This document shows, piece after piece, positions 17,430 through 56,115 of a stretch of 64,000 nt of DNA. Source of the DNA: Thalassolituus maritimus. Its GTDB lineage: Bacteria > Pseudomonadota > Gammaproteobacteria > Pseudomonadales > Oceanobacteraceae. The translations under genes were made by a program, and so were the position numbers. The notes beneath the pieces were generated by a model. It was not told the origin of the DNA. It saw only the letters and a program-made list of their open reading frames with translations, and searched no databases. Where the stretch lies: assembly GCA_913019975.1 (NCBI GenBank), contig CAJWBH010000011.1, positions 1 to 64,000 on the forward strand, read 5' to 3'. Each line of letters begins with the position of its first letter. The first letter of the stretch is position 1.

Positions 17430-17432
17430 ACA

Positions 17433-18989: not shown

Positions 18990-18998
18990 GATATCTGC

Positions 18999-20483: not shown

Positions 20484-21001
20484 TACTCAGCTCCTTCTTT
20501 GCTTTCGCCAACACCCAGCTGCTGAGAAATCTCAGTGATGTTGTCAGTATTTTTCAGAATTTGTTCAAGAACCGTTTCCAGCTCTTCAGAGCGATCCGCT
20601 TTACTCAGCAGGTCACGCAGTTTGTTACGCGCGTCCAGAAGCTGCTTCAGAGGCTCAACCTGTTCTACGATAGCTTCTGGCGTAAAGTCGTCCATCTTAC
20701 GGAAATCCAGATCCACAGCCATGGTGTTGCCATCGCCTGCCAGAGTGTTTTCAACCTGCAGGTTCAGCTTCGGATTAACTTTAGCCATCACTTCATTGAA
20801 GTTATCGCGATCAATCTGAACGAACTTACGCTCTTTCAGCGCTTTGCGGTTTTCAGCGTTATCACCTGAGTAGTCACCCATGACACCTGCAACAAACGGC
20901 AGTTCTTTTTTAACTTCAGCGCCATTCGTTTCAACATCATATGTGATGTGTACGCGAGGCTTACGCACGCGCTTCAGCTTATTGTGGATACTTTCGGACA
21001 T
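20483..21001 (-). CDS. tssB: TssB: T6SS sheath small subunit
   Basis: This 172-aa protein matches TssB/VipA. Visible blocks are [66 protein letters not shown] and the C-terminal helix region [27 protein letters not shown]. It forms the sheath heterodimer with TssC encoded next. The ribosome-binding site is AAGGAGTTACTC. Confidence 0.97.
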
Positions 21002-21053
21002 GAGTAACTCCTTTTCCTTTGAGTAACGGTGTTTACCGTAATTCTGTTAATTC

Positions 21054-22319: not shown

Positions 22320-22382
22320 GGCAGAGTCCTTTCAATTTTGGTGTTTCTGGTCCAGTAGGAAAATGATACTACACCAGCCGTA

Positions 22383-22396
22383 GGGTGTTAACACCC
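22383..22396. other. Perfect 14-bp palindrome between tssA and tagF
   Basis: GGGTGTTAACACCC lies in the 83-bp gap just after the tagF stop. It could be a protein-binding operator or a short hairpin; no T-run follows on either strand. Confidence 0.45.
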
Positions 22397-22402
22397 ATTA
22401 AA

Positions 22403-23050
22403 TTATGACCACTGACCCGTCAGCATGTGGGTATATTCTTCCGGAGAGGGAAAACCAGATGCGACAAAAGATACCGACGGCGTATTTTCATTCGCACTCA
22501 TTCCCCAAAGGCTGACACTGCCGGGCACGGGCTGCGTCATGCTATGCAGAGAACCAAATTCAGGATTGGCACCTCCCACAGAAACCTGGCTGCCCGAAGC
22601 GCTTACAAAGCAATGTCTCGTGCACGCAGGTATGGCGACATGACTCAGCTTTTCACAAAGGTCATCAACAGTCAGTTGCTCCTGAAGCCCGGATATGGCT
22701 ACCTGTTGCAGCTCTGCAAACCAACCGTCGCCATCCGCCATCAACGCATACAGGTTTTCACCCTGAGCGAAAGGCACAGCAATCGACAAGGGGAAATAAC
22801 GGCCAACGCTATCTACACTCGGCACCAGAATGCCAGCCCAGCGTTGCTGATCAACAACGCCGGCATCAAGACCAAAGCGCCAGACAGAACTGGTTAAGTA
22901 AAAGTCTAACCAGTCATCAGCAAGAATATTGCGTGAGCCTGCCACGACGCACTGCAGCCATTCATCCCAGACATCGATAAATGTCTGCGGTAGATTACGA
23001 ACCAGAAAATCGCCGTGCGCGGGTAACTTACCGTAGATGCCGTAGTTCAT
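22403..23050 (-). CDS. tagF: TagF: T6SS regulatory protein (ImpM family)
   Basis: This 215-aa protein has the TagF hallmark start MNYGIYGKLPAHGDFLVRNLPQ and the block WRFGLDAGVVDQQRWAGILVPSVDSVGRYFPLSIA. TagF represses T6SS post-translationally, largely through Fha, in systems that also have PpkA and PppA, and all three partners are present here. It lies 9 bp after tssM with an AGGAA ribosome-binding site. Confidence 0.93.
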   Translation of the reverse strand: MNYGIYGKLPAHGDFLVRNLPQTFIDVWDEWLQCVVAGSRNILADDWLDFYLTSSVWRFGLDAGVVDQQRWAGILVPSVDSVGRYFPLSIAVPFAQGENLYALMADGDGWFAELQQVAISGLQEQLTVDDLCEKLSHVAIPACTRHCFVSASGSQVSVGGANPEFGSLHSMTQPVPGSVSLWGMSANENTPSVSFVASGFPSPEEYTHMLTGQWS

Positions 23051-23059
23051 AAAAATTCC

Positions 23060-26000
23060 TTACAGCGACTGTGGGCAACGGAAGTTACGAAGCAATGACA
23101 GGTCGAATGGATTTACATTCGTGCTCGCTGCCAGTCGATACTGCGCTTGATACCCAGACTCAGTAAACGTAATTACCTTTTCAGATTTATTTACGGTGGA
23201 GTGCAGCTGAGCATCATCAAGCATTCTCAGCAGCGACCAGTCACCATCGTACTGATCGTTGGACACCCGCTCTCCAAGGTCTTCGAACACAATACGAGAA
23301 CGCCCACTTTCACCGGCGATCCAGTTCAGCGATTTTTCAATTCGAGGGCCATGAGAATAACTGATCCGATTCTCACCAATTTCCATCGTAAACAGACGGA
23401 CATTAGAGTGGAGTTTCTCAGGCGTCGCACGGAAGTTAATCGCAGCAGCTTCACCTTCTGAGAACCAGGCGCGGCGAATATCGTCAGCACGTTGGAACTG
23501 GCGCAACGCTTCGCTGCTTAAGCCTAAAGAGAAACCACCATAACCTTTCTGCTTCCAGCGGTAGGTATCGACAAACGGAGACACATATTCATCGACGAAT
23601 GCCTGCTGGATACCCCCCGGCTTGAAGAACTCATTAAATGCGACCACTGAGGCCTCTGACTGACGCCCTGCAACCAGTGGGTAGCGGTCGCCCAGCGTAT
23701 TACGGAAAGTCTCATAGACCTGATAACGCCATACGGTATTAAGATGCACACCGGCTTTACCCATGACAGCGCCCCAGGTCTGATCGGCCAGTTTATTCAG
23801 CCAGTCGGCAGGTTGTTCAGGTGCGGTTGCCGCCAGGTTTTTAAGTTGCTGAATGGCGTCAGCACCGCCACCAGAGAAACGTTTTTTCGCCGCTTCAAAA
23901 GCCGCCGCATTTGAATCTGGAGCACCATCAATCTGACCGAGGTATTCAGCCAGTGCTCCGATCGCTTCAAGATAACCCGCAAACTTAGAAGGCGTGCCTT
24001 TCTCGGCCGCCAGCATGCGCTGGATATCACGGAAGCGAAGATCAACCAGCGTCGGGTCGTACACCATACCCGCCGCTTTTTCGACGAGACCGCCAGCAGC
24101 ACCGGAGGCCGTAGGCATTTCAATTTCTGGCGTAAGAGTCGTGTTTTTTACAACCAGCTCTGTCACCTGAGAGAGTGGCGATGAAAGCTGATCTGCCAAC
24201 TTAAGTAGGTGGGTGACAGACTGACTACCACCCGGTAAATTCGCGAGGCTGAATTTCTGGTAGAAGGCCTGCCAGCGGCGGGCATACTCAGTCAGGTATA
24301 ACTTCTCGACATCGGCACTTAATTTCTCGAGATCCGCTTTGCTGTAATCTTCGCCACTGATATTACCGCCATAGATCCACTGATCCGCAGCGATCTGTTT
24401 CATCATTTCGGAGTCAGGGCCATACTCCGCCTGATCGTATCCTGCCTTAGTGAAAAGGAACGGCATCATAAATACCGGATCATTTTCACTTAAACCGAAC
24501 ACCTGCTGAGGATTGCCGCCGATCTCTCGATAGAGGTCAACTTCACGGGCGTTGTTGCCCATTTTCTGAAGTTGCGCAAACAGTCTTTGAGCAACCGGAA
24601 TACGCTGTAAGTACTGGCGGGTGCGAGTAACGACATATTCATCAGGCTGGAGCTGTTCATCAAAGCCCAGTTCAATCAGGTGATCGAGGTGAGTCAGCAG
24701 CTGCGACTGCTTAGTCGCTTCACCGGGCAGGAGATCCTGCCAGCGAGTCTCTGCGTAAGCGCGAATCTGTTCATAATCGCGGTGCTCCTGATCAAACAGC
24801 ATCAGATACACACGAAACACAGGTAAAAGCGCGCTATCGTCTGCGCCCAGCGCATTGAGGTGACGCTCGAGCATGTTAGCTACAGCCGGATAAAACACCT
24901 GATTAAGCTGCGTGTTGTACGCCTGATCTGCCGCTGCATCGACGCGGCCATCATACAGGCCAAGGTAACTGATGAAGGGGTGCTCTTCCTGATCGTAAAC
25001 AAGGCTCGCCTGATAGAGCGGAGTCAGAAGTTCGAGTGCTTCTTCCGTTGTCGCCTGCTCCGGGCGAATGGTTTCACGTAATTGCAGATAATCACGATGC
25101 AGGCTATCAACCTCAGCCATGTATGCCCGGTTCTGCACCAGAGCACCAGTCCATAGAGCCGCACAGCCAATCAATAAACCGGTCAGGCCCGCAACCGCAC
25201 CGCGGCGCATCCAGCGCAACAGGTTTTCAATCTTACGGTTTACACCAACAAGCTCTGATTCAGGGAAAATAACATCGCGGAAAAGGCGGGTAATAAAGAA
25301 ACTCTTACCGCTGTTATGCTGTTGCTTGCCCATACTGCGTTCAAGACCAAAGTTAGCGCTCACTTGCGCCATCATGCGGTCAATCGGGCTACCTTCCTGT
25401 GTGGCGCTGGTAAAGTAGACACCACGCAACATAGGTACTGTGCTGTAATTATTCGGTGCAAACGTCTGCTGAATAAACCCATCAACGACGTTCGCCAGAC
25501 TTTCAAGCGCTGGCGGGAAACCCTGAATCATGGCGCGCTTATCGGTATTACGCTCGTGCTGGACACGCCACAGCAGACGCTCGTTCAAGCGCTCCACCAG
25601 CTGATTAAACTCGTGACGGAAGCGGCTGATATCAGCACCCGTATTTTCACTCTCTTCCTGAGGGAAGCTCACACCCCAGACCTGCTCGCGCTCGGCCTGT
25701 GACAGGTTACCGAAAAATTCAGCAAAGCCAGCCACAAGGTCGCCTTTAGTAAAGGTCAGATAAACGGGGAAACGAATACCGAGTTCATCCTGCAATTCAC
25801 TGATGCGGGCACGGATAATTTTTGCCTGCTGCTCACGCTGTTCTTTCGTCTGTACCATCAGATCCTGAAGACTGATAGCAATCAGAGCACCGTTAATAGG
25901 ACGGCGACGACGATATTTTTTCAGCAGGGCGAGAAAAGCCTGCCAGGCATTATTGTCCACCACCCGATGACTGTCCTGGGTGGTGTACCGGCCTGCGGTA

Positions 26001-26566
26001 TCAATCAGAACAGCGTCGTTAGTAAACCACCAGTCACAGTTACGAGTGCCACCGATGCCGCCCAGGGCTTGTTTACCATGGGTGTCAGCCAATGGAAATT
26101 CCAGCCCCGAATTCACCAGCGCGGTGGTTTTACCCGAGCCCGGCGGACCGATAATAATGTACCAGGGGAGCTGATAGAGGCTGAGTTTGCCCCGACGCGA
26201 ACTGAAACGTGCCTTTTTGAGCGTGGCCAGAGCATCACGGAAGCGGGTTGCCATCTGTGCCAGCTCTTCCTGACTGCGCTCCTGATCGGGGTCAACAACG
26301 TCGTTGTCTTTCTGCTGAGATGACTCAATCTCGCCCAGCAATTCTTTATTCTGTCGACGTTCAACCAGCCATTGGCTGACATTCCAGGTCAGCCAGAACA
26401 ACCAGAAAAATCCGATAATAATCGCCCGGGTCATCGGGCTAAGCGTCATATTATCTGCGCCGAACTTGATAAATTCAGCACCAAACCAGATCAGCAACGA
26501 CAGAGCCGTGAGCCCGATAATTCCGACGACCCACTTATTTTGCAGAAACGCCAACAGCTTTTTCAT
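23060..26566 (-). CDS. tssM: TssM (IcmF): T6SS membrane-complex protein
   Basis: This 1168-aa inner-membrane protein has TM helices at about 12-30 and 45-62 and a third near 450 (GLTGLLIGCAALWTGAL). The cytoplasmic NTPase-like domain between them carries an intact Walker A (GPPGSGKT, 140-147) and a downstream LIDTAGRY block. The long periplasmic part ends in IcmF/TssM C-terminal domains. It spans the envelope with TssL and TssJ. The ribosome-binding site is GGAGAACAC. A MITE-like insertion now separates it from tssL upstream in its operon. Confidence 0.96.
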   Translation of the reverse strand: MKKLLAFLQNKWVVGIIGLTALSLLIWFGAEFIKFGADNMTLSPMTRAIIIGFFWLFWLTWNVSQWLVERRQNKELLGEIESSQQKDNDVVDPDQERSQEELAQMATRFRDALATLKKARFSSRRGKLSLYQLPWYIIIGPPGSGKTTALVNSGLEFPLADTHGKQALGGIGGTRNCDWWFTNDAVLIDTAGRYTTQDSHRVVDNNAWQAFLALLKKYRRRRPINGALIAISLQDLMVQTKEQREQQAKIIRARISELQDELGIRFPVYLTFTKGDLVAGFAEFFGNLSQAEREQVWGVSFPQEESENTGADISRFRHEFNQLVERLNERLLWRVQHERNTDKRAMIQGFPPALESLANVVDGFIQQTFAPNNYSTVPMLRGVYFTSATQEGSPIDRMMAQVSANFGLERSMGKQQHNSGKSFFITRLFRDVIFPESELVGVNRKIENLLRWMRRGAVAGLTGLLIGCAALWTGALVQNRAYMAEVDSLHRDYLQLRETIRPEQATTEEALELLTPLYQASLVYDQEEHPFISYLGLYDGRVDAAADQAYNTQLNQVFYPAVANMLERHLNALGADDSALLPVFRVYLMLFDQEHRDYEQIRAYAETRWQDLLPGEATKQSQLLTHLDHLIELGFDEQLQPDEYVVTRTRQYLQRIPVAQRLFAQLQKMGNNAREVDLYREIGGNPQQVFGLSENDPVFMMPFLFTKAGYDQAEYGPDSEMMKQIAADQWIYGGNISGEDYSKADLEKLSADVEKLYLTEYARRWQAFYQKFSLANLPGGSQSVTHLLKLADQLSSPLSQVTELVVKNTTLTPEIEMPTASGAAGGLVEKAAGMVYDPTLVDLRFRDIQRMLAAEKGTPSKFAGYLEAIGALAEYLGQIDGAPDSNAAAFEAAKKRFSGGGADAIQQLKNLAATAPEQPADWLNKLADQTWGAVMGKAGVHLNTVWRYQVYETFRNTLGDRYPLVAGRQSEASVVAFNEFFKPGGIQQAFVDEYVSPFVDTYRWKQKGYGGFSLGLSSEALRQFQRADDIRRAWFSEGEAAAINFRATPEKLHSNVRLFTMEIGENRISYSHGPRIEKSLNWIAGESGRSRIVFEDLGERVSNDQYDGDWSLLRMLDDAQLHSTVNKSEKVITFTESGYQAQYRLAASTNVNPFDLSLLRNFRCPQSL

Positions 26567-26657
26567 GTGTTCTCCATGTACACAACGGGAGGCGCATCCT
26601 TACCCGATGGTCATTTTTATTCATTCAGCAGCTATCTCATCAAAGACAGCAAGACTA

Positions 26658-26921
26658 GGGCCTGTTAACACTAATTAAACAGGCCTGTTATCGGCTAAAA
26701 CCCCCTCAGATAAGGCACTGAGAGTGTCGCCTAACGGGTTAAGCAAGCGAACAGTAACGCGATATGAGGGATTTTTAGCCATAACCCTTCGGGCTGAGGC
26801 CAGTTTTTCCCATTTACGTCGTCTTTGGTCATTCATTTAACCCGTTAATATCACTCCTCTTTCCTTGTTCTGAGAAAAACTGGCTCTCAGCAGGCACGCT
26901 TCACTTAGTGTTAACAGGCCC
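26658..26921. mobile_element. 264-bp MITE-like element with 17-bp perfect terminal inverted repeats
   Basis: Both ends read GGGCCTGTTAACACTAA (26658-26674 and its complement 26905-26921), flanked by a TA duplication (26656-26657 and 26922-26923). There is no transposase gene. The inside is foldback-rich: palindrome AACAGGCCTGTT at 26678-26689; TAACGGGTTA at 26732-26741 pairing with 26838-26847; and 26693-26708 pairing with 26765-26780 at 14 of 16 positions. It lies between tssL and tssM inside the T6SS operon. The end structure and TA target fit mobilisation in trans by a DDE transposase (IS630- or IS5-like is a guess). Confidence 0.82.
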
Positions 26922-27814
26922 TAATAAAACCGCTTACCTTGTGGTGGTGATACCACCTCGGAATCTTTTGCAGGTGTACCGTCAACGCCGGATATCTCTG
27001 AGTAGATACTTTCAGCGACGGGAGTCGTCTCCTGATACATCCAATAACGGAAACCGGAATAGGTCAGCACGAGTAACGCCATCACAACACTGGCGATGAC
27101 CCACAAAGGAATATAATTTTTCAGGTACTCGCTGGGCTTCACGGAACCTTCCCAGTGGGGCGACAACTCTGACTCCCACCCAGGGCGATGACTTTCAATG
27201 GTGTGATACAGGTTTTCGCGTATCTGTTCGAGCTGCTCGTTCCCCCGGGGCATAACGCGATATTTCCCCTGAAAACCCAGGCTCAGGCAGAGATAATAAA
27301 GTTCAAGCAGATCGAGGTGAGTCCCCGGCGTTTCCAGCAGCTTCTGCAGAATCAGGAAGGATTTTTCACCACCCGACGTTTCCTGATGAAACAGACTCAG
27401 AAGTGAATGTTGACTCCAGCCACTGCCCGCTCCCCATGGGGTATTCAACACCATTTCGTCAATGACAGAACATAACAGGTAACGCGCAGCGACGACGGTG
27501 TCACCGGAAATACCGGCATTTCTCGCGTTACGCTCAAAGCTCTTTATTTCTTCCGTCAGACGCTTATGCAAGTCAGGCACCTGATCGTGCTTCATGGTCG
27601 AACGCAGCTTGGTCACCAGAGTCAACAGCGTGGTTGCGCCTGTCACCAGCGGATTAAGCCCATGACGCACATCGATTTTTTCATTGCCCGCCATCGCTAG
27701 TTGAGGCGGTGCTGCCCGGCCCTGCCCTGCACCAGCAGAAGAACGCGCAGCGCCCGGCGTAGGAATCATGACCGTGCGGTCAGAAGCGCCCGGCTGTTGT
27801 CCATCATTGCCCAT
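26921..27814 (-). CDS. tssL: TssL (DotU/IcmH): T6SS membrane-complex protein
   Basis: This 297-aa protein has a Gly/Ala/Pro-rich N-terminus (1-45) and then the DotU cytoplasmic domain: NPLVTGATTLLTLVTKLR at 54-71, ARYLLCSVIDEMVLNTPWG at 110-128, WSQHSLLSLFHQE at 133-145 and YYLCLSLGFQGKYRV at 173-187. A single C-terminal TM helix is at about 234-254, with about 40 residues after it. There is no peptidoglycan-binding OmpA domain, as in the short TssL class. Its stop codon lies at the edge of the MITE-like element; removing the element restores the same TAG, so the protein is not truncated. The ribosome-binding site is AGGAG. Confidence 0.95.
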   Translation of the reverse strand: MGNDGQQPGASDRTVMIPTPGAARSSAGAGQGRAAPPQLAMAGNEKIDVRHGLNPLVTGATTLLTLVTKLRSTMKHDQVPDLHKRLTEEIKSFERNARNAGISGDTVVAARYLLCSVIDEMVLNTPWGAGSGWSQHSLLSLFHQETSGGEKSFLILQKLLETPGTHLDLLELYYLCLSLGFQGKYRVMPRGNEQLEQIRENLYHTIESHRPGWESELSPHWEGSVKPSEYLKNYIPLWVIASVVMALLVLTYSGFRYWMYQETTPVAESIYSEISGVDGTPAKDSEVVSPPQGKRFY

Positions 27815-27817
27815 ACA

Positions 27818-29152
27818 TCAGCTCCTGATTGCCCAGAGTTCCATGATTAAGCCGGGATAATCGGCGCCAAGATGTACCGCGAAACCACCGGACTGCTGCA
27901 TCGACTTCCACAGATCCCCGGTATTCTCAATTTCGAAATAAGTGAAACCGGCGTGGTACGGAATCTGTCGTGGCGCGACAGGCAGCGGGCGCGTTCTCAG
28001 ACCCGGTAGCTGCGTCGTGATCAGCTCCCGAATAGTTTCGACCGGTGCAATTTTTGCCTGCGCAGGGAAGCGGCTACGTAACACTTCTGTTGGCATGTCC
28101 GCTTTAACCGCAACCACAAACGATGCAGTACGCGTCAATGATGGATCAGTGATCGGCGCCACATAAATACCGAACCTACGCTCGACCAGATCCAGAGAAA
28201 TAGCTGACTGCTCAAGTACCATACTGAGCGACTGGCGCAGCGCCGAGAAAAGCCCAGCAAATGTCTGCTGCAAATCTGTGTGAATGTACAGGGGCATTTC
28301 CGGTGGACGTTTATCACTGGCAGTAAATGTCGACAGTTCGCCTGCCAGTTGCAACAGCTCGGTATAGAGTGTCAGAGGATGCAGAGTTGCTAACTGAGTC
28401 AGATGCTTCACCAACGGCTGCACGCGGTTAATGACCTGTAGCAGAAGGTAATCTGCAATTTCGGCAGAACCTGAACGTCCTGAATCGCTCAGGCGATGGC
28501 TCAAAGCTTCACCACGCTGACGCAGCAGGCCTGACACTTCTTCGATGTAACCTTTAATTTCACCACTGACCGAACAATCGAGCACGGGCGGTATAAATGT
28601 TTTATCGAGTTTTACCGGATTTCCCGGTAACCGTTCTGCGATGCGGGCAATGCCAATACAGGCGTAACCACCGAGGTCTTCTGAGCCCAGCTTAAAGCAA
28701 GTGGATAATTTACCGATCTGGATACGTGCCGACTGTCCTGATGCAGACGAGCTGTCACGCGCATCGAAGTTGTAAGTCTGGAAGCGTGCCTGTGGGAACT
28801 CTTCAGCATCACGAACGGATTCCTGAGCCCCAGGGCGACGCATAGGCACGCACAGGTAAACAATCTCATCCCGGGTATTTTCAGGAATCTCAATAATCGG
28901 AGGAAGTTCTTCCGCTTCAGGCGCCAGTATCGGCGTGCCGTCCGGGAAAATACCGCGGACTGAGGAAATAGAAACTTTGCCCAGTTCAAGCGCCTCGACA
29001 TCGATCGTCAGCTCCTGAATACCCCAGTAATAACTACCTACGGCCCCGGTGCGAACATCAACAAGGCGCTCAACAAAACGATCCTGCTGCTGAAAATGCT
29101 GAGGGCGCAGGAACATTCCTTCCGACCAGATTACCTTGTTCTTTGAAGACAT
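27818..29152 (-). CDS. tssK: TssK: T6SS baseplate protein
   Basis: This 444-aa protein has the TssK/ImpJ/VasE start SKNKVIWSEGMFLRPQHFQQQDRF, nearly invariant in the family. Other blocks are YYWGIQELTID, HLTQLATLHPLTLYTELLQLAGEL and a C-terminal FTYFEIENTGDLWKSM. TssK trimers link the baseplate wedges to the TssJLM membrane complex. It ends 3 bp before tssL. The ribosome-binding site is AGGATGACTC. Confidence 0.96.
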   Translation of the reverse strand: MSSKNKVIWSEGMFLRPQHFQQQDRFVERLVDVRTGAVGSYYWGIQELTIDVEALELGKVSISSVRGIFPDGTPILAPEAEELPPIIEIPENTRDEIVYLCVPMRRPGAQESVRDAEEFPQARFQTYNFDARDSSSASGQSARIQIGKLSTCFKLGSEDLGGYACIGIARIAERLPGNPVKLDKTFIPPVLDCSVSGEIKGYIEEVSGLLRQRGEALSHRLSDSGRSGSAEIADYLLLQVINRVQPLVKHLTQLATLHPLTLYTELLQLAGELSTFTASDKRPPEMPLYIHTDLQQTFAGLFSALRQSLSMVLEQSAISLDLVERRFGIYVAPITDPSLTRTASFVVAVKADMPTEVLRSRFPAQAKIAPVETIRELITTQLPGLRTRPLPVAPRQIPYHAGFTYFEIENTGDLWKSMQQSGGFAVHLGADYPGLIMELWAIRS

Positions 29153-29216
29153 GAGTCATCCTTTCCGTGACTGCACAGACCGTACAGTGAATTCCGAATT
29201 CTGAATAGCGCGACCG

Positions 29217-29759
29217 TCAGAGTTGTGAAGAACGATCGCTGCGTAGTTTCTTGTGAGGCGTAGCAGCACTGTTGTCTTCTTCTATTTCAACAACGGCAAT
29301 CTGATTTCCCTCGATACCGACCTGAACCACATTTTCGTTGTGTTCCAATACTGGAATGACCAGTAACGCCTCGGCGTCACGATATTGAATAAACTCAGCC
29401 ATCAGCCCCAGATACTTAACTTCGGTCGCCAGCTCGATGGTTTCGATACGCTGCTCACCCGGGGTCAGTTCTTTCAGCACAATGGTATCGATCAGATCTT
29501 TACCCAGACGAGCCGGTGCGCCCTCGTACAGACTCAGGAAATCTTCCCGACTGAACTGACGATCATCAGCCAGCTTAAATACATGGATCACGACCGGTGA
29601 CGGACGATCATCTGCATCCGGGTTGATCTGCGTGCCTGCCGTAAATTCGATAACGGCGCTGGTATCCATATTCAACGCTTTACGCGCCGACTGACACCCC
29701 GACATCATCGCCAGTACCAGCACCAGCGAAACCAGGTGCCATCCTTTCTTAAACTGCAT
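29217..29759 (-). CDS. tssJ: TssJ: T6SS outer-membrane lipoprotein
   Basis: This 180-aa protein has a lipoprotein signal (hydrophobic LVSLVLVLAMMSGC), with the acylated Cys at residue 22. The domain resembles VasD/SciN: SPVVIHVFKLADDRQFSREDFLSLYEGAPARLG and a beta-sandwich ending in VVEIEED. It anchors the TssLM complex to the outer membrane. It is read between fha and tssK. Confidence 0.94.
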   Translation of the reverse strand: MQFKKGWHLVSLVLVLAMMSGCQSARKALNMDTSAVIEFTAGTQINPDADDRPSPVVIHVFKLADDRQFSREDFLSLYEGAPARLGKDLIDTIVLKELTPGEQRIETIELATEVKYLGLMAEFIQYRDAEALLVIPVLEHNENVVQVGIEGNQIAVVEIEEDNSAATPHKKLRSDRSSQL

Positions 29760-29777
29760 TGTTTTTCCTAAAAGTAA

Positions 29778-31484
29778 TCAGGTACGGTTAAGCGCCCGTG
29801 TATTTTTAAGCTCGGCCAACTGCTTTTCGTAGGCGCGGGCAAATTCTTCACCAAATAACTGGTTATACGTCGTCTCATAGTCCGACTTCAGAGCCTTGAA
29901 GTATTGCTCGAACGCGAGCCAGTTTTTCGCATCTTTATTACCCAGCAGCGAATCACGGGCATTAATGTGCTGCTTCAGGTTATCCGGGTCAAAATGTTTA
30001 AACATCGTATCGTACGCGGCATGCATGCCTTTCAGGACAGCCACCTGATGATCAGACAAGTCATCAAAGCTGTCACGCACCGCATCCTGAGGACGCATAA
30101 ATGCAGACGCATCACGGCTGAACATCATCTTCAGAGCGTCTTCTGCGTTGGCAGAAAATTTCAGCGGGTTGTTATCCACAGTCTGAATCATGGTGTGCTG
30201 TACACGAAGTTCATTTTTGATCGCCGTACGGGCACGCAACAGATCAATCAGGCGGGTCACGGCCTCATTTACAATGCCAGAGACCTCGGGCATTAAGCTA
30301 TCCAGCTGATCATCCGAGATATTATTCAGGCCCATAAGACTGGCCAGCTGTCGGACATCAACACTCGACGTGCCTGCACCAGACGCAGCCTGAGCTGATC
30401 CAGAACCAGGCTGACCAGCCCCGAACGCAGCCTGACCCTGACGGGAGGCTGCAGGTGTTGGTTCCGGGATCTGCGATTCAGGCACAGGAGGCACCTGCTG
30501 CGAATCAGGAAATGACGAAAACGCCGGTGGCGTAGTCTGTGGTTTCTCGGGAGACGCAGGTATCCCGAACAAACTATCAATATCATCAGCTCCGCCCGCA
30601 ACCGCTTCAGATGCTGCAAACGGATTCGGCTCTGACGCGGGCGACGCTGACGCAAAAGAATCTGAAGCAAACGGGTCAGGAGTCTGAGAGTGCTGCGATT
30701 GAGGGGCCTGCTGCACAGGCGCCTCTGGCCGAGGAATTCTGATGTTCTGCTGTTCTACAGGGGCATGATCTGATGCTGATCCGCTTTTCCACCAATCGTC
30801 ATTATCATCCCAACCGGACGACGACGGTGCAGGATCTGAAAAAGCCGGTTTATTTAACGCAGCGAGGGGATCATTGCCCGATGACGACGATCCAAACGAC
30901 CCTCCGAATAAGGAATCATCCGATGACGATGAACCCCACGGGTCATCTTTAGCAGAGCCCACCGACTGAGACACGACAGCGCCCCAGTCCTGTTCTGGTT
31001 GTTTCGGTGTCTGAGCACCCGGCTCAAGCCAGGAATCTAACTGACTGGCACTGTTCGCCGACTGCTGCTTCGCGGCCGTTGCCGGGTTAAACGTCGTGCG
31101 ATCTCCTTTATCAAGGAAATCTGCCGACCCTAAATCAGCCGGAATCGCGGGCTCAGCCGGAGGCGCCTTAAGAGTGACCTGCAACTGATACTCACCACAG
31201 ATTAAAACATCGCCTGCGGCCAGAGGGTGCGGCTTACCGGGACCAAGAGGGTCCTGACTGTCATTCACAAATGTACCGTTGGTGCTGTGGTCCAGCAACG
31301 AAAAGCGACCATCAGCGAACACAACCTCAAGATGACGTGAAGAAAGAATGCGCTCGGTATCCGGCAATACCCAATCGTTGGAGTCGGCACGTCCGACTGA
31401 GCCACCCGCACTGCGGAAGACTTTCGTGTGATTGAGCATATTGGCGTGAGGCGGGCATTCGACGACCGTCAGAATCAAGTCCAT
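29778..31484 (-). CDS. tagH: TagH/Fha: FHA-domain T6SS scaffold
   Basis: The protein is about 568 aa. I chose ATG 31484 because it begins exactly at the FHA domain (MDLILTVVECPP); the frame stays open to 31676 but that adds an unlike 64-residue leader. The FHA domain occupies about 1-105 with VGRADSNDWVLPD, SSRHLEVVF and HSTNGTFVN, the phosphothreonine-binding signatures. A long low-complexity Pro/Ser/Gln linker (about 130-370) follows. The C-terminal TagH/ImpI domain begins LASLMGLNNISDDQLDSLMPEVSGIVNEAVTRLIDLLRAR. PpkA phosphorylation of Fha activates T6SS assembly in related systems. The gene is divergent from ppkA and first in the minus-strand T6SS block. Confidence 0.92.
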   Translation of the reverse strand: MDLILTVVECPPHANMLNHTKVFRSAGGSVGRADSNDWVLPDTERILSSRHLEVVFADGRFSLLDHSTNGTFVNDSQDPLGPGKPHPLAAGDVLICGEYQLQVTLKAPPAEPAIPADLGSADFLDKGDRTTFNPATAAKQQSANSASQLDSWLEPGAQTPKQPEQDWGAVVSQSVGSAKDDPWGSSSSDDSLFGGSFGSSSSGNDPLAALNKPAFSDPAPSSSGWDDNDDWWKSGSASDHAPVEQQNIRIPRPEAPVQQAPQSQHSQTPDPFASDSFASASPASEPNPFAASEAVAGGADDIDSLFGIPASPEKPQTTPPAFSSFPDSQQVPPVPESQIPEPTPAASRQGQAAFGAGQPGSGSAQAASGAGTSSVDVRQLASLMGLNNISDDQLDSLMPEVSGIVNEAVTRLIDLLRARTAIKNELRVQHTMIQTVDNNPLKFSANAEDALKMMFSRDASAFMRPQDAVRDSFDDLSDHQVAVLKGMHAAYDTMFKHFDPDNLKQHINARDSLLGNKDAKNWLAFEQYFKALKSDYETTYNQLFGEEFARAYEKQLAELKNTRALNRT

Positions 31485-31567
31485 TTCTTCACCGTAGGTT
31501 TCCTGTGGTTCAGCGGCAAAAAGAGAATAACCGCAGCGCAGACGAGCGGTCACAACAGACACCTGTC

Positions 31568-31594
31568 TTGAGCCGCGCGAGCAAGTCCTATAAT
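31568..31594 (+). promoter_or_regulatory. Candidate ppkA promoter
   Basis: A perfect TATAAT at 31589-31594 lies in the fha-ppkA divergent gap, with TTGAGC 15 bp upstream. The spacing is short, so this is tentative. Confidence 0.35.
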
Positions 31595-31700
31595 ATCGGC
31601 GCCACTTTCTGAGTTCAAGCAAACGGAAGGTCGGGCCAACGAGGAACCAGGGCTCGAAAAGGACGAAATACGTCAAGGGTATCGATACGACAGGCTCAAT

Positions 31701-48050: not shown

Positions 48051-48749
48051 ATGACTAACGCTGGAAAACGCGTACTCATCGTTGACGATGAAGCACCCAT
48101 CCGTGAAATGATCGCTGTAGCGCTTGAAATGGCTGGCTACGAATGCCTCGAAGCCGAAAATGTTCAGGACGCTCACTCTCTTGTAGTGGACCTACGCCCG
48201 GATATGATCCTGCTTGACTGGATGCTGCCGGGTGTCAGTGGCATTGAGTTCGCTCGTCGCCTGAAACGCGAAGAAGCAACAGCTGAGCTGCCGATTATCA
48301 TGCTTACAGCAAAGGGTGAAGAAGAAAATAAAGTTCAGGGCCTCGAGAGCGGTGCTGACGACTACATCACCAAGCCATTCTCTCCACGCGAACTGGTTGC
48401 TCGTCTGAAGGCCGTATTGCGCCGGGCAACCCCACCGGGCGTCGAGGAAACCATCGAAGTTAATGGCCTGATTCTAGACCCCGTATGCCACCGAGTGATG
48501 GCCCACGACAAAGCGGTTGATGTGGGCCCTACCGAGTACCGACTACTGCAATTTTTTATGACACACCAGGAGCGTGCTTACTCGCGCTCTCAACTTCTGG
48601 ATCAGGTCTGGGGTGGCAACGTTTATGTCGAAGAACGCACGGTGGATGTGCATATCCGTCGTCTTCGCAAGGCGCTGGGCCAGTCGCATGAGCAGCTGAT
48701 TCAGACAGTTCGCGGTACCGGTTACCGCTTTTCAACCAAAGCGTCCTGA
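48051..48749 (+). CDS. phoB: PhoB: phosphate response regulator
   Basis: This 232-aa OmpR-type regulator has receiver residues D12/D13 (VDDE), phospho-acceptor Asp56 in LLDWMLPG, and [19 protein letters not shown], the last identical in pattern to PhoB. A winged-helix domain with [14 protein letters not shown] follows. It is activated by PhoR encoded 2 bp downstream and should control the pst-phoU genes and porin at the right end. Confidence 0.95.
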
Positions 48750-48751
48750 TC

Positions 48752-50065
48752 ATGCCGGGCTGGCGTCAGGAGCTTAAACGGCTCCTGCTTCTGCTAGCCG
48801 TTGGCCTGAGCGGGCTCTGGTGGAGCCCCTGGCCGTTCCTGCCTCTGGCAGTAATCAGTCTGCTGATTCTGTTCTGGCATCTACGTCAGGCCATCCGCAT
48901 GAAGCACTGGTTGACCCGTTACGAATCTCAGGAAGCTCCGGCCACCAGCGGTATCTGGCAGGATCTCATCAAACTCAGCTTGCGCCCAACCAAGCGTAGC
49001 CAACGCTATCGCCATAAATTACAGGCGCTGTTTGATCGGCTTCAGGATTCCACCTCCGCTCTGCAGGAAGGCATCATCATGGTGGATCGCCATGGCAATC
49101 TTGAATGGTGGAACCGCTCTGCAGGAAAGATGCTGGGACTGCGTGACCCGATCGATATCAACCAGCCCATCACCAACCTGATACGTGCACCTGAGTTCAC
49201 GGCCTATTTCTCGAGGGGCGAGTTCGATACCCCACTGGAGCTGAACTCACCGATTGCCAAAGACATGTGCCTGTCTCTGAATATTACGCCGTTCGGCCGC
49301 AACGAGCGCCTGATTGTCGCTCATGACGTCAGCCGTCTGCGGCAGCTCGAGCAAATGCGCAAAGACTTCGTCGGTAACGTCAGCCATGAACTGAGAACGC
49401 CCCTTACGGTCATTCAGGGTTACCTTGAAACCTTTGAAGATATTATCCCAGAGCGGGCCCGGCGCATGCTGACACAGATGCAGGAGCAGGCTTCACGAAT
49501 GGATTCATTAGTGCGCGACCTGCTCGCCTTGTCGCGCCTTGAGAATGGGGCACACGACCCCAGGACGAGTGTTGATGTCCTCACACTGCTGGAGCAGATC
49601 ACAGAAGAAGCTATCGCGGTGTCCGCAGGACAACACGACATACGCCTGAACATAGAAAGCGACGACAGCCTCAGCGGCTATGAGCACGAGTTACGCAGTG
49701 CGTTCACCAACATTATCATTAATGCAGTGAAATACACTCCCTCCGGGGGTTCCATCCATATTCGCTGGTATCGGGACGGGGAGAGTCTGTGCCTGGAAGT
49801 GAAAGACTCGGGTATCGGCATTGAAGAACATCACCTCCCGCGCCTGACCGAGCGATTTTATCGCGCCGATCCAAGCCGCAGTAAAAACACCGGAGGCACG
49901 GGGTTAGGTCTCGCGATCGTAAAACATGTGCTACTACGCCACGCTGGCAACCTGCTGGTCACCAGCGACTACGGGAAAGGAAGCTGCTTTACCGCCTGCT
50001 TCGAAGCGCCTGTTCACCTTCCGGCATCAGCGGACTTTCGCAATGAAACGCGAAAGCACGGCTAA
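48752..50065 (+). CDS. phoR: PhoR: phosphate sensor kinase
   Basis: This 437-aa protein has two N-terminal TM helices with almost no periplasmic loop (about 8-50), a PAS-like domain (LQEGIIMVDRHGNLEWWNRSAGKMLG), the HisKA box FVGNVSHELRTPLTVIQGYLETF and an HATPase domain with GIGIEEHHLPRLTERFYRADPSRSKNTGGTGLGL. The lack of a sensor loop fits phosphate status being relayed by PstSCAB-PhoU. Its 3' end overlaps the convergent CheY-like gene by 39 bp. Confidence 0.95.
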   Translation: MPGWRQELKRLLLLLAVGLSGLWWSPWPFLPLAVISLLILFWHLRQAIRMKHWLTRYESQEAPATSGIWQDLIKLSLRPTKRSQRYRHKLQALFDRLQDSTSALQEGIIMVDRHGNLEWWNRSAGKMLGLRDPIDINQPITNLIRAPEFTAYFSRGEFDTPLELNSPIAKDMCLSLNITPFGRNERLIVAHDVSRLRQLEQMRKDFVGNVSHELRTPLTVIQGYLETFEDIIPERARRMLTQMQEQASRMDSLVRDLLALSRLENGAHDPRTSVDVLTLLEQITEEAIAVSAGQHDIRLNIESDDSLSGYEHELRSAFTNIIINAVKYTPSGGSIHIRWYRDGESLCLEVKDSGIGIEEHHLPRLTERFYRADPSRSKNTGGTGLGLAIVKHVLLRHAGNLLVTSDYGKGSCFTACFEAPVHLPASADFRNETRKHG

Positions 50066-50923: not shown

Positions 50924-51707
50924 CGTGCGTCAGCCTTGGAGTAACGTCTTCTGTTAACTCAGCATAGCTGCTTTTGCCAGAATCGCTGCCAAAGGGCATA
51001 CGTTCCAGTCGCATCAGAGTCGCTCCAATCACGGCTGCAGGCATAATAAACAGGTTAACCACGGGCACAGTCAGCAGAAGCGCCACCAGCAAGCCAAACC
51101 CCATTACCGTCCATAAATCCTCAGCCAATCTCTCACGAACTTCTGCAAACGGCTTAGCATGGTTATCAAACGAAAGATCCATGTACTGAATCGCCATCAT
51201 CCAGCCGCCAAACCAGAACCACAAGGGAGGAGCGACAAGCTGCCCGATACCGGGAATCCAGCCAAGTAGAAAAATACCGAGATAACGCGGCAGGTAGTAC
51301 CCCACTTTAGTCAGTTCCCGCCCGAGGGTACGGATCGTCATTGCCGGAATGGATTCATCCGGAATCGAGTGCCCCTGCAAAGTTTCAACACGCTCAGCCA
51401 ACAGGCCATTCAGCGGCCCCGCAATAATCATCAGGACGGCACTGAAGAAGTACACCAGTGACAACACCAGAAAGATGACGACCAGCGGCATCAGTATCCA
51501 ATACAGAAAAGATAGCCATCCGGGTAACAGGTCAACCAACTGACCAATCCAGGCATCCAGCTGGCTGATGCCCCAGACGCTGGCGAAACCCATCACAATG
51601 ATGTTCAGGAGTAATGGAAAAGCAACATAACGACGCAGCCCGGGGGTTTTTAAGTTCTGAAAACCACGCCAGACATACTGCATACCGGTGAAAGGATTAC
51701 CGCTCAT
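50898..51707 (-). CDS. cysZ: CysZ-like sulfate permease/EI24-family membrane protein
   Basis: This 269-aa inner-membrane protein begins MSGNPFTGMQYVWRGFQNLKTPGLRRYVAFPLLLN. It has several TM helices and the motifs FFSAVLMIIAGPLNGLLAERVE and LFLLGWIPGIGQLVAPPLWFWFGGW-like runs of the CysZ family, which imports sulfate for cysteine synthesis. The start ATG 51707 has an ideal ribosome-binding site (GAGGGAATC); ATG 51722 is less likely. Its 3' end overlaps the start of the CheY-like gene by 26 bp. Confidence 0.9.
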   Translation of the reverse strand: MSGNPFTGMQYVWRGFQNLKTPGLRRYVAFPLLLNIIVMGFASVWGISQLDAWIGQLVDLLPGWLSFLYWILMPLVVIFLVLSLVYFFSAVLMIIAGPLNGLLAERVETLQGHSIPDESIPAMTIRTLGRELTKVGYYLPRYLGIFLLGWIPGIGQLVAPPLWFWFGGWMMAIQYMDLSFDNHAKPFAEVRERLAEDLWTVMGFGLLVALLLTVPVVNLFIMPAAVIGATLMRLERMPFGSDSGKSSYAELTEDVTPRLTHDETEGSGR

Positions 51708-51780
51708 GATTCCCTCGTGCATCTACGAAAAGCCTTTTATACAATCCTCGCCCTTTGTTGACCACCCAGGAGTGCCGGAC

Positions 51781-52482
51781 ATGACCCCGGAACGCTACGA
51801 CCGCATCCGTAAAACCCTTGAGATGCGCCAGCCGGACCTTACCGTCATTACGGACGAAGTGTATAAACCTCATAATCTGGCAGCCATAGCGCGCACCTGC
51901 GATGCCGTCGGTATTCCTAAGATTCACTGCGTTTGGCCACGTGATCGTTACCGCCTGAAAACAGCGGCAACCGCCGGCTCATCCGACTGGATTGAAGTTC
52001 AGACTCACGCCGATATCGAAACCGGGATTCGTGAGTTACAGGACAACGGCGTAAAAGTCGTAGCAGCCCATCTTACCGATCGCGCTATTGACTACCGCGA
52101 CTATGACTTTACCCAGCCGACGGCCCTACTCATGGGCACTGAAAAGGAAGGCGTCAGCGATGCGGCTTCTGACATGGCCGACGAGCACCTGATTATTCCG
52201 ATGCGCGGCATGGTGCAATCGTTCAATGTTTCCGTGGCCGCAGCCATCATTCTCAATGAAGCTCATTACCAGCGTCAGGCCGCCGGCATGTATGACTCAC
52301 AGCGCCTGCCAGATGAATGGTTTGACCGCCTGTTGTTCGAATGGTGCCAACCCAAGATTGCGCGCCTGTGTCGGGAAAATAATCTCAGCTATCCTGAGTT
52401 ACGGGAAGATGGAGAGTTGGCAGACCCGCAAGGTTTTTCTGATCTGTACAATGCGCATAGGGCAGCCAAAAAGAAGGGGTGA
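51781..52482 (+). CDS. trmH: TrmH: tRNA (guanosine-18-2'-O)-methyltransferase
   Basis: This 233-aa SPOUT-class methyltransferase begins MTPERYDRIRKTLEMRQPDLTVITDEVYKPHNLAAIARTCDAVG. SPOUT knot motifs ALLMGTEKEGVSD and IIPMRGMVQSFNVSVAAAIIL are present, followed by the TrmH C-terminal extension. It methylates G18 in tRNA D-loops. The start ATG 51781 follows CCAGGAGTGCCGGAC, a strong ribosome-binding site. Confidence 0.94.
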   Translation: MTPERYDRIRKTLEMRQPDLTVITDEVYKPHNLAAIARTCDAVGIPKIHCVWPRDRYRLKTAATAGSSDWIEVQTHADIETGIRELQDNGVKVVAAHLTDRAIDYRDYDFTQPTALLMGTEKEGVSDAASDMADEHLIIPMRGMVQSFNVSVAAAIILNEAHYQRQAAGMYDSQRLPDEWFDRLLFEWCQPKIARLCRENNLSYPELREDGELADPQGFSDLYNAHRAAKKKG

Positions 52483-52555
52483 AAGCCCTGACTTGAACAG
52501 ATTGTTACAAAACAAAAAGTGCAACAAAGCGTACAGATCAGTAATATCGAACAAT

Positions 52556-52590
52556 AGTGTTACTCAGCGTTTCTGAGTCAAAGTAACACT
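52556..52590 (+). other. Hairpin downstream of trmH
   Basis: ACTCAG-CGTTT-CTGAGT is nested inside AGTGTT/AACACT outer pairing. It has no T-run. It could be a transcript end for trmH or part of a regulatory region for the small RNA further on. Confidence 0.45.
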
Positions 52591-52602
52591 GTAAGTTATT
52601 CG

Positions 52603-52640
52603 CCCACCTATTTGTGCGATATATCTCACAAGCAGGTGGG
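52603..52640 (+). other. Second hairpin upstream of the sRNA
   Basis: CCCACCT pairs with AGGTGGG, with an inner TTGTG/CACAA stem. A TGTAAG half-site at 52590-52595, like half of the GacA-box TGTAAG-N6-CTTACA, sits just before it. Significance uncertain. Confidence 0.4.
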
Positions 52641-52764
52641 AGATTTAGGCATAACACTGCCTTAACCTCCGCGCCTCCCTCCCCAGAAAAACCTAACTCA
52701 TTGTTTTAAAAAGATTTTTCAAAAACCACTGGCATTCGACGACATAGTCTGTCGCAATAGTCAC

Positions 52765-52793
52765 GTAACATGAACTCACAGTTTTGCTATCTT
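52765..52793 (+). promoter_or_regulatory. Promoter of the CsrB-like sRNA
   Basis: GTAACA and TATCTT are separated by 17 bp, placing the start site near 52800, right where the GGA-motif series begins. Approximate match to sigma-70 consensus. Confidence 0.5.
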
Positions 52794-52799
52794 TAATTC

Positions 52800-53010
52800 C
52801 GCAGGACGCAAGGCGCTGATGGGATCAGCAAGCAGGACGCAGGATTCGGCAGGATCGCCGGGCAGGATGCGCAAGGACGATACAGGAAGCGAAGGATTAT
52901 TGTGGCCAGGAGGCCAACCAGGACGGTAGAGAGGATCTCGCTCAAGGACGATATACCAGGAAGGTATAGGGTGCTGTGGCGGTGAGGACAGGATGTCCTG
53001 GCCGCCCATT
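52800..53010 (+). ncRNA. CsrB/RsmZ-like CsrA-sequestering small RNA
   Basis: About 210 nt with 16 GGA triplets (between 52804 and 52993), mostly as CAGGA or AAGGA, and no plausible gene. Six lie in or at the edge of hairpin loops with perfect short stems. The hairpins are GCTGAT-GGG-ATCAGC (52815-52829), CGGC-AGGATC-GCCG (52847-52860), TGGCC-AGGA-GGCCA (52903-52916), GAGA-GGA-TCTC (52929-52939), ATACC-AGGAA-GGTAT (52953-52967) and AGGAC-AGGAT-GTCCT (52985-52999). The last is capped by an outer GGCGG/CCGCC stem that may end the RNA, though no U-run follows. Repeated GGA loops are the defining feature of CsrB, CsrC, RsmX, RsmY and RsmZ, which titrate CsrA/RsmA. This family is known to control T6SS, biofilm and motility. 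The strand is set by motif direction. Confidence 0.85.
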
Positions 53011-53330
53011 TAGCTCCCGGCCCATCGTAATGGCATCCCCCCATTTTCAGTTACCCCAAGCTAGTTACTTCAAGCACTCTCACGACCGATACTCTTGGAT
53101 AACACGTTATGCGTTCAGTAACCCTGAAGTCAGCTTAGTAACAGCATTTTTCCACTCATTAATTCCGCCTCTGGAACACCGGCCATATAGTGACACATAT
53201 ATCACTTAAAGCTCGTCAAATTTCCATCAACGACAGTACAAAAGGCAACCATCAGCATACTCACTGTTGTGGTGCTTACCCGATGCTGTGCCATCCTGTA
53301 TCTGTACAAAGATCACACCGGAAGAACAGT
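53011..53330. other. Intergenic stretch before the GspE-N-like gene
   Basis: 320 bp with no convincing gene. Several frames are open but lack ribosome-binding sites or family similarity. It holds the leader of the next gene. Confidence 0.5.
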
Positions 53331-53807
53331 ATGCCATCACCATCACTTAAGCTACGCCTCGGGCAGCTTCTTCTGAACCGACGCGCAATTACTCGTAAGC
53401 AGTTGGATGATGCACTTCAATACCAGAAAGAACACGCAGGAGCCAAACTCGGTGAAGCACTGATCGCTCTGGGCGCTATTGATGAAGGGTTACTCAAGCG
53501 CGTACTGCGCCAGCAGCGCTGGTTGCGCCCGTGCGCCACCTGCTTTGCACTTCTTTCACCTATGTCAGTGACCTACGCCTACGATCCCGAAGAGCACATG
53601 CTTTCTGCTCAGGACGAAGCTGCAACCTACTGGTACCTGCAGGGAGAAGAACAGCAAAGCTACAACGAGTCAGAACAGGCTATGCGAATTCTTTCGACCG
53701 CGTACGATCTGTACAAAGGTGAACCACAAGCCGGTGAATGGCGCTACAGTCTGAGTGAGACAGATAACAGCGAGGGCTATCAGGTCGAAGTGAAGGTTTT
53801 TTTCTGA
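53331..53807 (+). CDS. Small protein with GspE N-terminal-like domain
   Basis: This 158-aa protein starts at ATG 53331 with a GGAAG ribosome-binding site. The N-terminal about 65 residues (LKLRLGQLLLNRRAITRKQLDDALQYQKEHAGAKLGEALIALGAIDEGLLKRVLRQQ) resemble the N-terminal domain of type II/IV secretion ATPases (T2SSE_N), but there is no ATPase part. The rest (YDPEEHMLSAQDEAATYWYLQ ...) is unrecognised. It could bind a signalling nucleotide or a pilus partner; unknown. A terminator follows. Confidence 0.75.
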   Translation: MPSPSLKLRLGQLLLNRRAITRKQLDDALQYQKEHAGAKLGEALIALGAIDEGLLKRVLRQQRWLRPCATCFALLSPMSVTYAYDPEEHMLSAQDEAATYWYLQGEEQQSYNESEQAMRILSTAYDLYKGEPQAGEWRYSLSETDNSEGYQVEVKVFF

Positions 53808-53878: not shown

Positions 53879-53954
<76 letters not shown>

Positions 53955-54102: not shown

Positions 54103-54139
54103 AATACATCCCCCTGAAATGAATACACTAGGTGCCGAC

Positions 54140-54829
54140 ATGAACGCCGGATTTATCCTCGTTGCCGACGATGAACCAGCCATCTGCGAAATGATCTGTA
54201 CCGGTCTTGAGCTTGCGGGATACAAAACCCGGAAAGCTGCCAATGGCCAGATAGCCCTCCAGATGATCATCAACGAACAACCGGATCTTGTAGTACTGGA
54301 TTGGATGATGCCGATGATGAGCGGACCGGAGCTGACAGCCCGGCTGAAGCGCGAAGAACGCACAAAAGACATCCCTGTCATTCTGCTTACGGCGCGCGCC
54401 GAAGAAGATGACAAAATCAAAGGGCTGGAGTGCGGTGCTGACGACTATATTACTAAGCCGTTTTCACCCAGAGAGCTGAATGCGCGTATTAAGGCGGTTC
54501 TCCGTCGCAGCCAAACCACATCGTCTGAAGCGCTGACCGTTCTCGATATGACGTGCCACCCAGATGAGCAGCAATGCCGTATCAAGGGTGAACTGGTATC
54601 GCTCGGCCCGAAAGAATACAAGCTACTCGAATTCTTTATGCGCCACCCGAACCGGGTGTTTTCCCGCGAACAACTGCTCGACAAGGTCTGGGGCGGCAAC
54701 GTCTACATCGATGAACGCACCGTTGATGTTCATATCCGGCGTTTACGCAAAGCGATTTCTATCGATAACCACGAACGTCTGATTCAAACAGTCAGGGGAA
54801 GTGGGTATCGTTTTTCTCCCGATCAGTAA
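54140..54829 (+). CDS. Second PhoB-like response regulator
   Basis: This 229-aa OmpR-type regulator has receiver D10/D11 (VADDE), Asp54 in [27 protein letters not shown], and winged helix [15 protein letters not shown]. It is very similar in pattern to PhoB at 48051, so it is a paralogue. The start ATG 54140 has AGGTG upstream; ATG 54119 is poorer. Its partner kinase follows 17 bp later. Its target genes cannot be read from here. Confidence 0.92.
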   Translation: MNAGFILVADDEPAICEMICTGLELAGYKTRKAANGQIALQMIINEQPDLVVLDWMMPMMSGPELTARLKREERTKDIPVILLTARAEEDDKIKGLECGADDYITKPFSPRELNARIKAVLRRSQTTSSEALTVLDMTCHPDEQQCRIKGELVSLGPKEYKLLEFFMRHPNRVFSREQLLDKVWGGNVYIDERTVDVHIRRLRKAISIDNHERLIQTVRGSGYRFSPDQ

Positions 54830-54846
54830 GGTGAGGTAACGCAGGT

Positions 54847-56115
54847 TTGTATCAGGATGCACTGCAGCGAGAGCTGTTTCGGGTTGGCATTATAGTGCTT
54901 GCAGGTTTCGCTGCCGGCTGGTCAGTCGGATATTCCCTGTATGGCTTACTGATCGGATTGGTCGTTTCACAGATCATCAGTATCCGCCACGCGGCCACTA
55001 TTTTTAAATGGAGTTATCGCCAGGGCCCGGCCCCACAGGACAGCGGATTGATAGGTTACTCTGCCGACCGCATCATCCGACGAGAAAAGACACTTAAAGA
55101 TCGCCTGCTGAATCAGGCGAAAATGCTGCAACGCTATAATCAGGGGATTGAAGCACTGAAAGATGGTGTCGTTGTACTCGACAGCGCCGGCCACATTACG
55201 ACATTCAACAGCGCAGCAACGCGTATGCTGTACCTGCGTAAAGATGATAATGGTCAGCACATAACTCATCTTATCCGCACCCCTCAATTTGTCCGCTATT
55301 TCCGCAGCAGCGACTTCAGCGAGCCTCTGCAGTTCGATCTCAGAAATGTCAGTCTGCAGGTTCAGATCACTGAATTTGGTATCGATCAGAAAATCATGCT
55401 CGTCAGAGATGTCACTGAACGCAAACGCGTAGAAACCATGCGCCAGGACTTTATTGCCGATGTCTCCCATGAATTGCGCACACCACTAACCGTCATTAAT
55501 GGTTATCTGGAAATGCTCTCTGATATGGATACGCCAGCTCCACTGTCTAAAGCACTGGCACAAATGGATAGCCAGGCGAACCGTATGACAAATCTGGTAA
55601 ACGACCTTATTCAGCTATCCAAACTGGAAAGTGCGAGCAGGGAGCGGGATGGTGTGTCCTTTGACCTGACAGCGCTGTGCCATCAGGTTGCCGGAGAAAT
55701 GAAAGGCTACTCAGGCGATGCTGAAGTCAGAATTAACACCGAGCGCAGCCTGATTGTCGATGGCTTCAAAGAAGAGATGCATTCTGCTCTGACCAACCTT
55801 GTCACTAACGCGATTAAATATGGTGATGGAAAACAAGTGGATATCGACATTGCCCCAAGTGATCGCGGTATCGAGGTTGCCGTGACAGACCAGGGGCCAG
55901 GTATTCCACCGGAACACCTGTCTCGGGTAACCGAGCGTTTCTATCGTGTGGATGAGTCGCGGGAGTCTACCGTTGGGGGCTCAGGCCTCGGGCTGTCGAT
56001 TGTTAAACACGCACTGGAACATCACGATGCCGAGCTTAAAATTGAATCGGCGCTGGGGCAAGGTAGTACCTTTTCTTTTGTGATCCCGTCTTTTCGAAGA
56101 GAAAACAACGCCTGA
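54847..56115 (+). CDS. Second PhoR-like sensor kinase
   Basis: This 422-aa protein starts with TTG at 54847, preceded by GAGG ten bases away. Layout copies PhoR: TM pair at about 10-45, PAS-like domain (ALKDGVVVLDSAGHITTFNSAATRML), HisKA FIADVSHELRTPLTVINGYLEML, and HATPase ending GGSGLGLSIVKHALEHH. With its regulator it forms a duplicated PhoBR-like system. As in PhoR there is no large periplasmic sensor. Confidence 0.92.
   Translation: MYQDALQRELFRVGIIVLAGFAAGWSVGYSLYGLLIGLVVSQIISIRHAATIFKWSYRQGPAPQDSGLIGYSADRIIRREKTLKDRLLNQAKMLQRYNQGIEALKDGVVVLDSAGHITTFNSAATRMLYLRKDDNGQHITHLIRTPQFVRYFRSSDFSEPLQFDLRNVSLQVQITEFGIDQKIMLVRDVTERKRVETMRQDFIADVSHELRTPLTVINGYLEMLSDMDTPAPLSKALAQMDSQANRMTNLVNDLIQLSKLESASRERDGVSFDLTALCHQVAGEMKGYSGDAEVRINTERSLIVDGFKEEMHSALTNLVTNAIKYGDGKQVDIDIAPSDRGIEVAVTDQGPGIPPEHLSRVTERFYRVDESRESTVGGSGLGLSIVKHALEHHDAELKIESALGQGSTFSFVIPSFRRENNA

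Follow-up and report, generated by a model that had tools for sequence, protein, structure and literature searches.

The window, a 64,000-nt stretch of Thalassolituus maritimus DNA, contains between two ORFs on the same strand a block crowded with GGA triplets, which raises the question of whether this is the gene of a small RNA that acts as a sponge for the regulator CsrA. We regard it as highly probable that 52800-53011 is the gene of a CsrB/RsmZ-type RNA that would titrate CsrA, under the control of a Gac- and IHF-dependent promoter (Table 1).

GGA motifs and their context

The first-pass annotation had counted 16 GGA motifs, and all 16 are present, between 52804 and 52993; elsewhere in the 64 kb, no 215-nt stretch has more than 9 on the plus strand or 10 on the minus strand. 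Letter shuffles of 52797-53011 reached 16 GGA in 2 of 5000 cases, and sequences drawn from its first-order Markov model did so in 37 of 5000, the stretch being G-rich, so the count is only moderately improbable given its own composition. Composition accounts for part of the GGA count but not for the context of the motifs. There are 7 exact CAGGA(T/C/A)G elements, whereas 2000 flank shuffles gave 0.24 on average and never more than 3. Likewise, stems of 4 bp or longer hold 7 of the 16 GGAs in their loops, compared with 2.8–3.0 when the flanks are shuffled (7 was reached in 3 of 300 shuffles and, in a second run, in 11 of 1000), and the mean probability of a GGA being unpaired, 0.69, was reached in 0 of 60 flank shuffles, which average 0.54. 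The stems TGGCC-AGGA-GGCCA and ATACC-AGGAA-GGTAT, offered as examples in that annotation, both occur in the sequence. The block at 52800-53011 thus has the many GGA motifs, many of them in hairpin loops, of a sponge RNA.

The 5' neighbor is a gene that we take, from its sequence, to be trmH. A Pfam search with the 3' neighbor found no match, and this ORF is kept near the RNA in many relatives. The tRNA gene that follows is also found inside the trmH loci of several relatives.

Table 1. Features at and around the putative sponge RNA gene (positions in the window)
Feature	Position	Strand	Basis or remark
Clp-type AAA protein	11301-13961		Pfam
trmH-type gene, 5' neighbor of the RNA	51688-52482	+	Same strand as the RNA
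TGTAAG half-site	52590-52595	+	Secondary; conservation in the genus is partial
Probable GacA/UvrY binding palindrome (upstream activating site), TGTGCGATATATCTCACA, 18 bp	52613-52630		Sequence, relatives
IHF-like site, AAACAATGAGTTA, 8 of 9 specified letters	52694-52706	-	
-10 element TATCTT, no good -35	52788-52793	+	Sequence, alignment A1
Predicted CsrB-type sponge RNA, 16 GGA	52800-53011	+	Both ends predicted
Conserved 3' module	52947-53010	+	Covariation, model R1, folding
Last GGA hairpin of the 3' module	52952-52968	+	
Linker GGGTGCTG between last GGA hairpin and terminator hairpin		+	
GGA-capped terminator hairpin, then ATTT	52978-53006	+	
ORF of 205 aa, 3' of the RNA	53190-53807	+	
tRNA gene	53882-53954	-	Sole Rfam match at gathering in the window

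Conservation and size range beside trmH

BLAST of 52480-53200 against 55 genomes, including that of the window, matched 21; the orthologue in T. maritimus DSM 24913 shows 90% identity over 541 bp. Of 44 family genomes, 34 have a match to the trmH-type protein, and all 34 contain a cluster of at least 7 GGA on the same strand, 0.2–1.2 kb 3' of trmH. A lack of conserved GGA loops in relatives was one of two outcomes that the first-pass annotation named as refuting its reading, and the comparison does not refute it: a GGA-rich block is present in 34 of 34 trmH genomes, together with a conserved promoter region, a palindrome, and covarying hairpins, and the proposed architecture of a CsrA/RsmA sponge gains support from these relatives. 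When the loop test was applied to 35 homologous blocks, the observed count exceeded the shuffled mean in every one; at most 15 of 300 shuffles reached it in 27 blocks, and more did in the other 8, which do not lie beyond 5% of shuffles. The block had also been called non-coding, which holds in that 32 of the 35 contain no frame open throughout; the remaining three (the window's own, G004, and G006) each have one open antisense frame.

Labeled genomes include G004 (T. maritimus DSM 24913, of the window's genus), G031 (T. marinus), and G019 (T. alkanivorans); Oceanobacter kriegii (G016), Oceanobacter mangrovi (G020), and Parathalassolituus penaei (G009) are further relatives. Ten family genomes gave no trmH match. 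Of these, G011 contains the complete architecture, and eight have no such block by these searches. The tenth, G057, contains a GGA-rich block (locus L135, G057:C56:8900-9900, minus strand) with 11 GGA per 200 nt and a different terminator (AGGGTGATAGAAGGGTAAGGACC...), which may represent a diverged form of the sponge or a separate one.

A covariance model of the 3' module (R1) matched 33 of the 44 family genomes (20 in its training set, 13 not) and, in the order, 14 of 390 genomes, all of which belong to the window's family (9 in training, 5 not). It scores 79.3 bits on the module at 52947-53010, which is part of the training set, and finds one copy in the window's genome. A second sponge in this genome was sought with R1 (one place) and Rfam CsrB (E up to 1) and none was found, in a search that may miss sponges with other ends and other activators. 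Additional R1 matches in G062 (contig 10, 27.1 bits) and G063 (contig 70, 26.0 bits) were rejected, with at most 7 and 8 GGA per 200 nt, respectively, as was an Rfam CsrB match in G033 that has no comparable GGA cluster (at most 3 per 200 nt). A plasmid search gave no match.

As counted in blocks that were cut by script and whose ends are predicted, the trmH-linked site ranges from 8 to 44 GGA. There are 8 in G010 and G013 and 9 in three other genomes of the genus of G013, 11–17 in 17 of 18 genomes of the Thalassolituus-type genera (g1 and g8) and 22 in G007, 22 and 26 in g5, and 33–44 in the Oceanobacter group (g2), where uncut loci span 437–550 nt. In P. penaei (locus L085, oriented positions 281-1734), two tandem blocks contain 37 and 39 GGA, each with its own palindrome. 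GGA density is 4.7–8.0 per 100 nt across uncut blocks, and csrA copy number does not rise with GGA number, with one copy in each of seven g2 genomes. This natural series of 8 to 44 motifs behind the same kind of promoter would allow a direct test of how site number relates to CsrA titration.

Promoter region and 3' end

The first-pass annotation proposed a sigma-70-like promoter and an upstream TGTAAG half-site, and each stands in part. The -10 element is in place, and a strict sigma-70 scan of 52480-53400 finds no promoter, there being no good -35; the Oceanobacter group has other sequences, such as GGTAAAGT, in place of the -10 core CTATCTT. The TGTAAG half-site is likewise present but is only partly conserved (TGTAGG in G001, TGTGAG in G002 and G003), and we rejected it as the main activator site in favor of the palindrome, which begins 23 bp after it and is the site conserved among relatives. 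This palindrome, the IHF-like site, and the terminator hairpin did not figure in that annotation.

The palindrome is centered about 178 bp ahead of the predicted RNA start and is the sole place in the 3.49-Mb genome with at most one mismatch to TGTGNGANATATCNCACA. A relaxed form occurs at 7 places, versus 16 for a reversed control, so that there is no enrichment and the argument for the palindrome is carried by spacing and conservation, not by rarity of the relaxed form; around the six other places, GGA density does not exceed 5 per 150 nt, versus 13 at the RNA locus. In a set of 34 loci from 33 genomes, which excludes G005, TGTRAG-N6-CTYACA (at least 10 of 12 letters) is centered 181.5–186.5 bp before the first GGA in 29 and 192.5–198.5 bp before it in 3 more. 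A palindrome is listed in G008 and G062 as well, where the reference GGA chosen by the script fell upstream of the promoter, and CGTGAGATATATCTTACA can be seen by eye upstream in G005. This conserved spacing, combined with the presence of a GacA orthologue (below), points to a GacA/UvrY-type upstream site. The IHF-like site is not significant in the window alone (18 of 100 shuffles); across the 34 loci, the best IHF match falls 103–107 bp before the first GGA in 27.

At the other end of the RNA, an alignment of the 3' module from 20 genomes shows double changes in 13 of 17 base pairs and a fit to the proposed structure in 93.1% of 334 cells, values that are favored (the fraction paired more so than the double changes) by drawing the structure from the same aligned sequences. 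Covariation is 0.438, a value reached by 0 of 500 shuffles (0.201 shuffled); sliding the structure gave no more than 0.131. Folding is concentrated here (z -4.16 for 52946-53016); the other two thirds of the RNA are ordinary (z -0.40 and -0.59), and the whole RNA folds no better than its shuffles (z -1.02). Only three T follow the terminator hairpin in the window, many relatives have long T runs, and a terminator scan of 52480-53400 listed none on the plus strand. The conserved -10 region, the covarying terminator hairpin, and the lack of a conserved frame together indicate a non-coding gene with its own promoter and terminator, with the caveat for the window that its T run is short and the automatic scan negative.

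A GGA occupies the hairpin apex in all 27 listed terminators, as ACAGGATGT in 22 of them, and all 20 aligned modules have the same linker, GGGTGCTG. It is conceivable, though we hold the idea only tentatively, that CsrA-binding capacity is tuned by gain and loss of hairpins behind one conserved promoter and that the terminator hairpin is a conserved CsrA site too, through which CsrA could shield the 3' end or influence termination of its own antagonist. Unlikely in our judgment is the reading in which the GGA-capped terminator has a special role besides that of the sponge, with CsrA, once bound there, protecting the 3' end or altering termination. It could draw on the constancy of the apex, on the terminators of E. 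coli csrB and csrC, which lack GGA, and on the invariance of the linker; however, the GGA in the terminator loop may be just another sponge site.

We consider it very improbable that the GGA block is instead a cis-acting, CsrA-binding part of a longer transcript, formed by read-through from trmH or as the leader of 53190-53807. The position of the block between two same-strand ORFs and the short T run would fit such a transcript, but the block has its own promoter region with a distant activator site at near-fixed spacing, its terminator hairpin is conserved with covariation and in many relatives leads into a long run of T, and trmH may be as near as 0.2 kb or as far away as 1.2 kb. We find it scarcely credible that an antisense gene, or a stretch rich in G or in repeats, produced the surplus of GGA as a side effect: the Markov result and the antisense frame open in the window are outweighed by the motif context, the covariation of the 3' module, the conserved promoter architecture, and the 32 of 35 blocks with no open frame. 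With these alternatives (cis leader, antisense gene, G-richness by chance) all disfavored, the reading that we retain is a separate sponge RNA gene.

Csr partners and known systems

The window's genome encodes one CsrA (88.9 bits), and csrA is found in 41 of 44 family genomes, the three misses being fragmented assemblies of one genus. A GacA/UvrY orthologue scores over the curated cut-off (291.5 versus 280 bits), and the best BarA match, which covers positions 1-903 of 920, scores 755 bits, under the cut-off of 890. Pairs of response-regulator and histidine-kinase genes occur on both sides of the RNA, at 48051-50065 and 54119-56115 (plus strand).

From these parts we infer transcription, binding of each protein, and a regulatory effect as follows. 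A BarA/GacS-type kinase would phosphorylate the GacA/UvrY orthologue, which would then bind the palindrome at 52613-52630, and IHF would bend the DNA between this site and the sigma-70 promoter, which has no good -35. The RNA would start near 52800 and end at the hairpin near 53011, offering up to 16 GGA sites, many in hairpin loops, to which several CsrA dimers could bind per RNA. Titration of CsrA would free the mRNAs that it represses.

Eight of ten window proteins searched against Pfam, at 14015-31676, match type VI secretion system (T6SS) families. In other bacteria, Csr/Rsm is known to control T6SS, and a link of this kind had been suggested for the RNA; the T6SS genes are indeed in the window, but their tie to the RNA is one of proximity only, with at least 21 kb between it and the tested genes. 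At 17433-20483 (minus strand), two neighboring genes each have a match to the VipB/TssC sheath family, which suggests a doubling of the sheath gene in this T6SS cluster.

The Rfam search suggested in the first-pass annotation yielded sub-threshold scores only, below gathering for RF00018 (CsrB), RF00195 (RsmY), and clan CL00106. The window's own sequence matches no sponge family at gathering; its best match is RsmY (16.7 of 57 bits, E 0.16). Of 18 trmH loci compared with the CsrB clan CL00106, 9 match at E up to 1 and none at gathering, and the 9 do not include the window's own locus. The best locus match, Rfam CsrB on O. kriegii (55.7 of 71 bits, E 2.8e-12), is also below gathering. Rfam CsrB gives a match with E up to 1 in 5 of the 44 genomes, in no case over its cut-off, and the trmH locus is the one matched in 2 of the 5 (G016 and G015). 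A CsrB match also lies on contig 15 of G028. Standard RNA-family searches thus miss an RNA of this kind in this group of marine bacteria, and the gene described here would supply the RNA part of the Gac/Csr system where Rfam thresholds find none. The mechanism is ordinary; what stands out in this very probable, unannotated sponge gene is the size series of its relatives and the GGA-capped terminator.

In the open-licence PMC literature, a search for Thalassolituus and CsrA together gave no match, and one for Oceanobacter, Thalassolituus, and 'small RNA' gave only a match that by its title concerns Bacillus subtilis. RsmY of Pseudomonas and its relatives are Gac-controlled GGA sponges, and RsmY (RF00195) is the family closest to the window RNA by Rfam score, although far below its threshold. 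In the marine alkane degrader Alcanivorax dieselolei, CsrR1 and CsrR2 have been proposed as CsrA sponges (PMC9788540). CsrR2 has its own promoter but lies beside fdx and hpt and has six unpaired GGA, while CsrR1 derives from the hfq leader; a trmH-linked form is not described in the excerpted text of that paper.

The closest likeness is to CsrB of E. coli (RF00018), which shares GGA hairpin loops and CAGGA(U/A/C)G repeats, the latter described for CsrB (PMC7652899, excerpted text). By the same loop test, 11 of 22 GGAs in csrB and 8 of 14 in csrC lie in stem-loops, and the unpaired probability of GGA in csrB is 0.80, versus 0.56 for shuffles (0 of 25). The window RNA differs from CsrB in size (212 nt and 16 GGA versus 369 nt and 22 GGA), in place (beside trmH, and not between yqcC and syd), in its GGA-capped terminator, and in scoring below Rfam gathering. 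Upstream, the two share a UvrY palindrome about 180 bp away, an IHF-like site between, and the -10 core CTATCTT. The E. coli csrB palindrome, TGTGAGAGATCTCTTACA, is centered 190.5 bp before the first GGA and 182.5 bp before the start, and in csrC a TGTAAG half-site precedes the palindrome by 16 bp (sites from the excerpted text of PMC4682653). As predicted from sequence, the layout of palindrome, IHF-like site, -10 core, GGA hairpins, and terminator is that of E. coli csrB.
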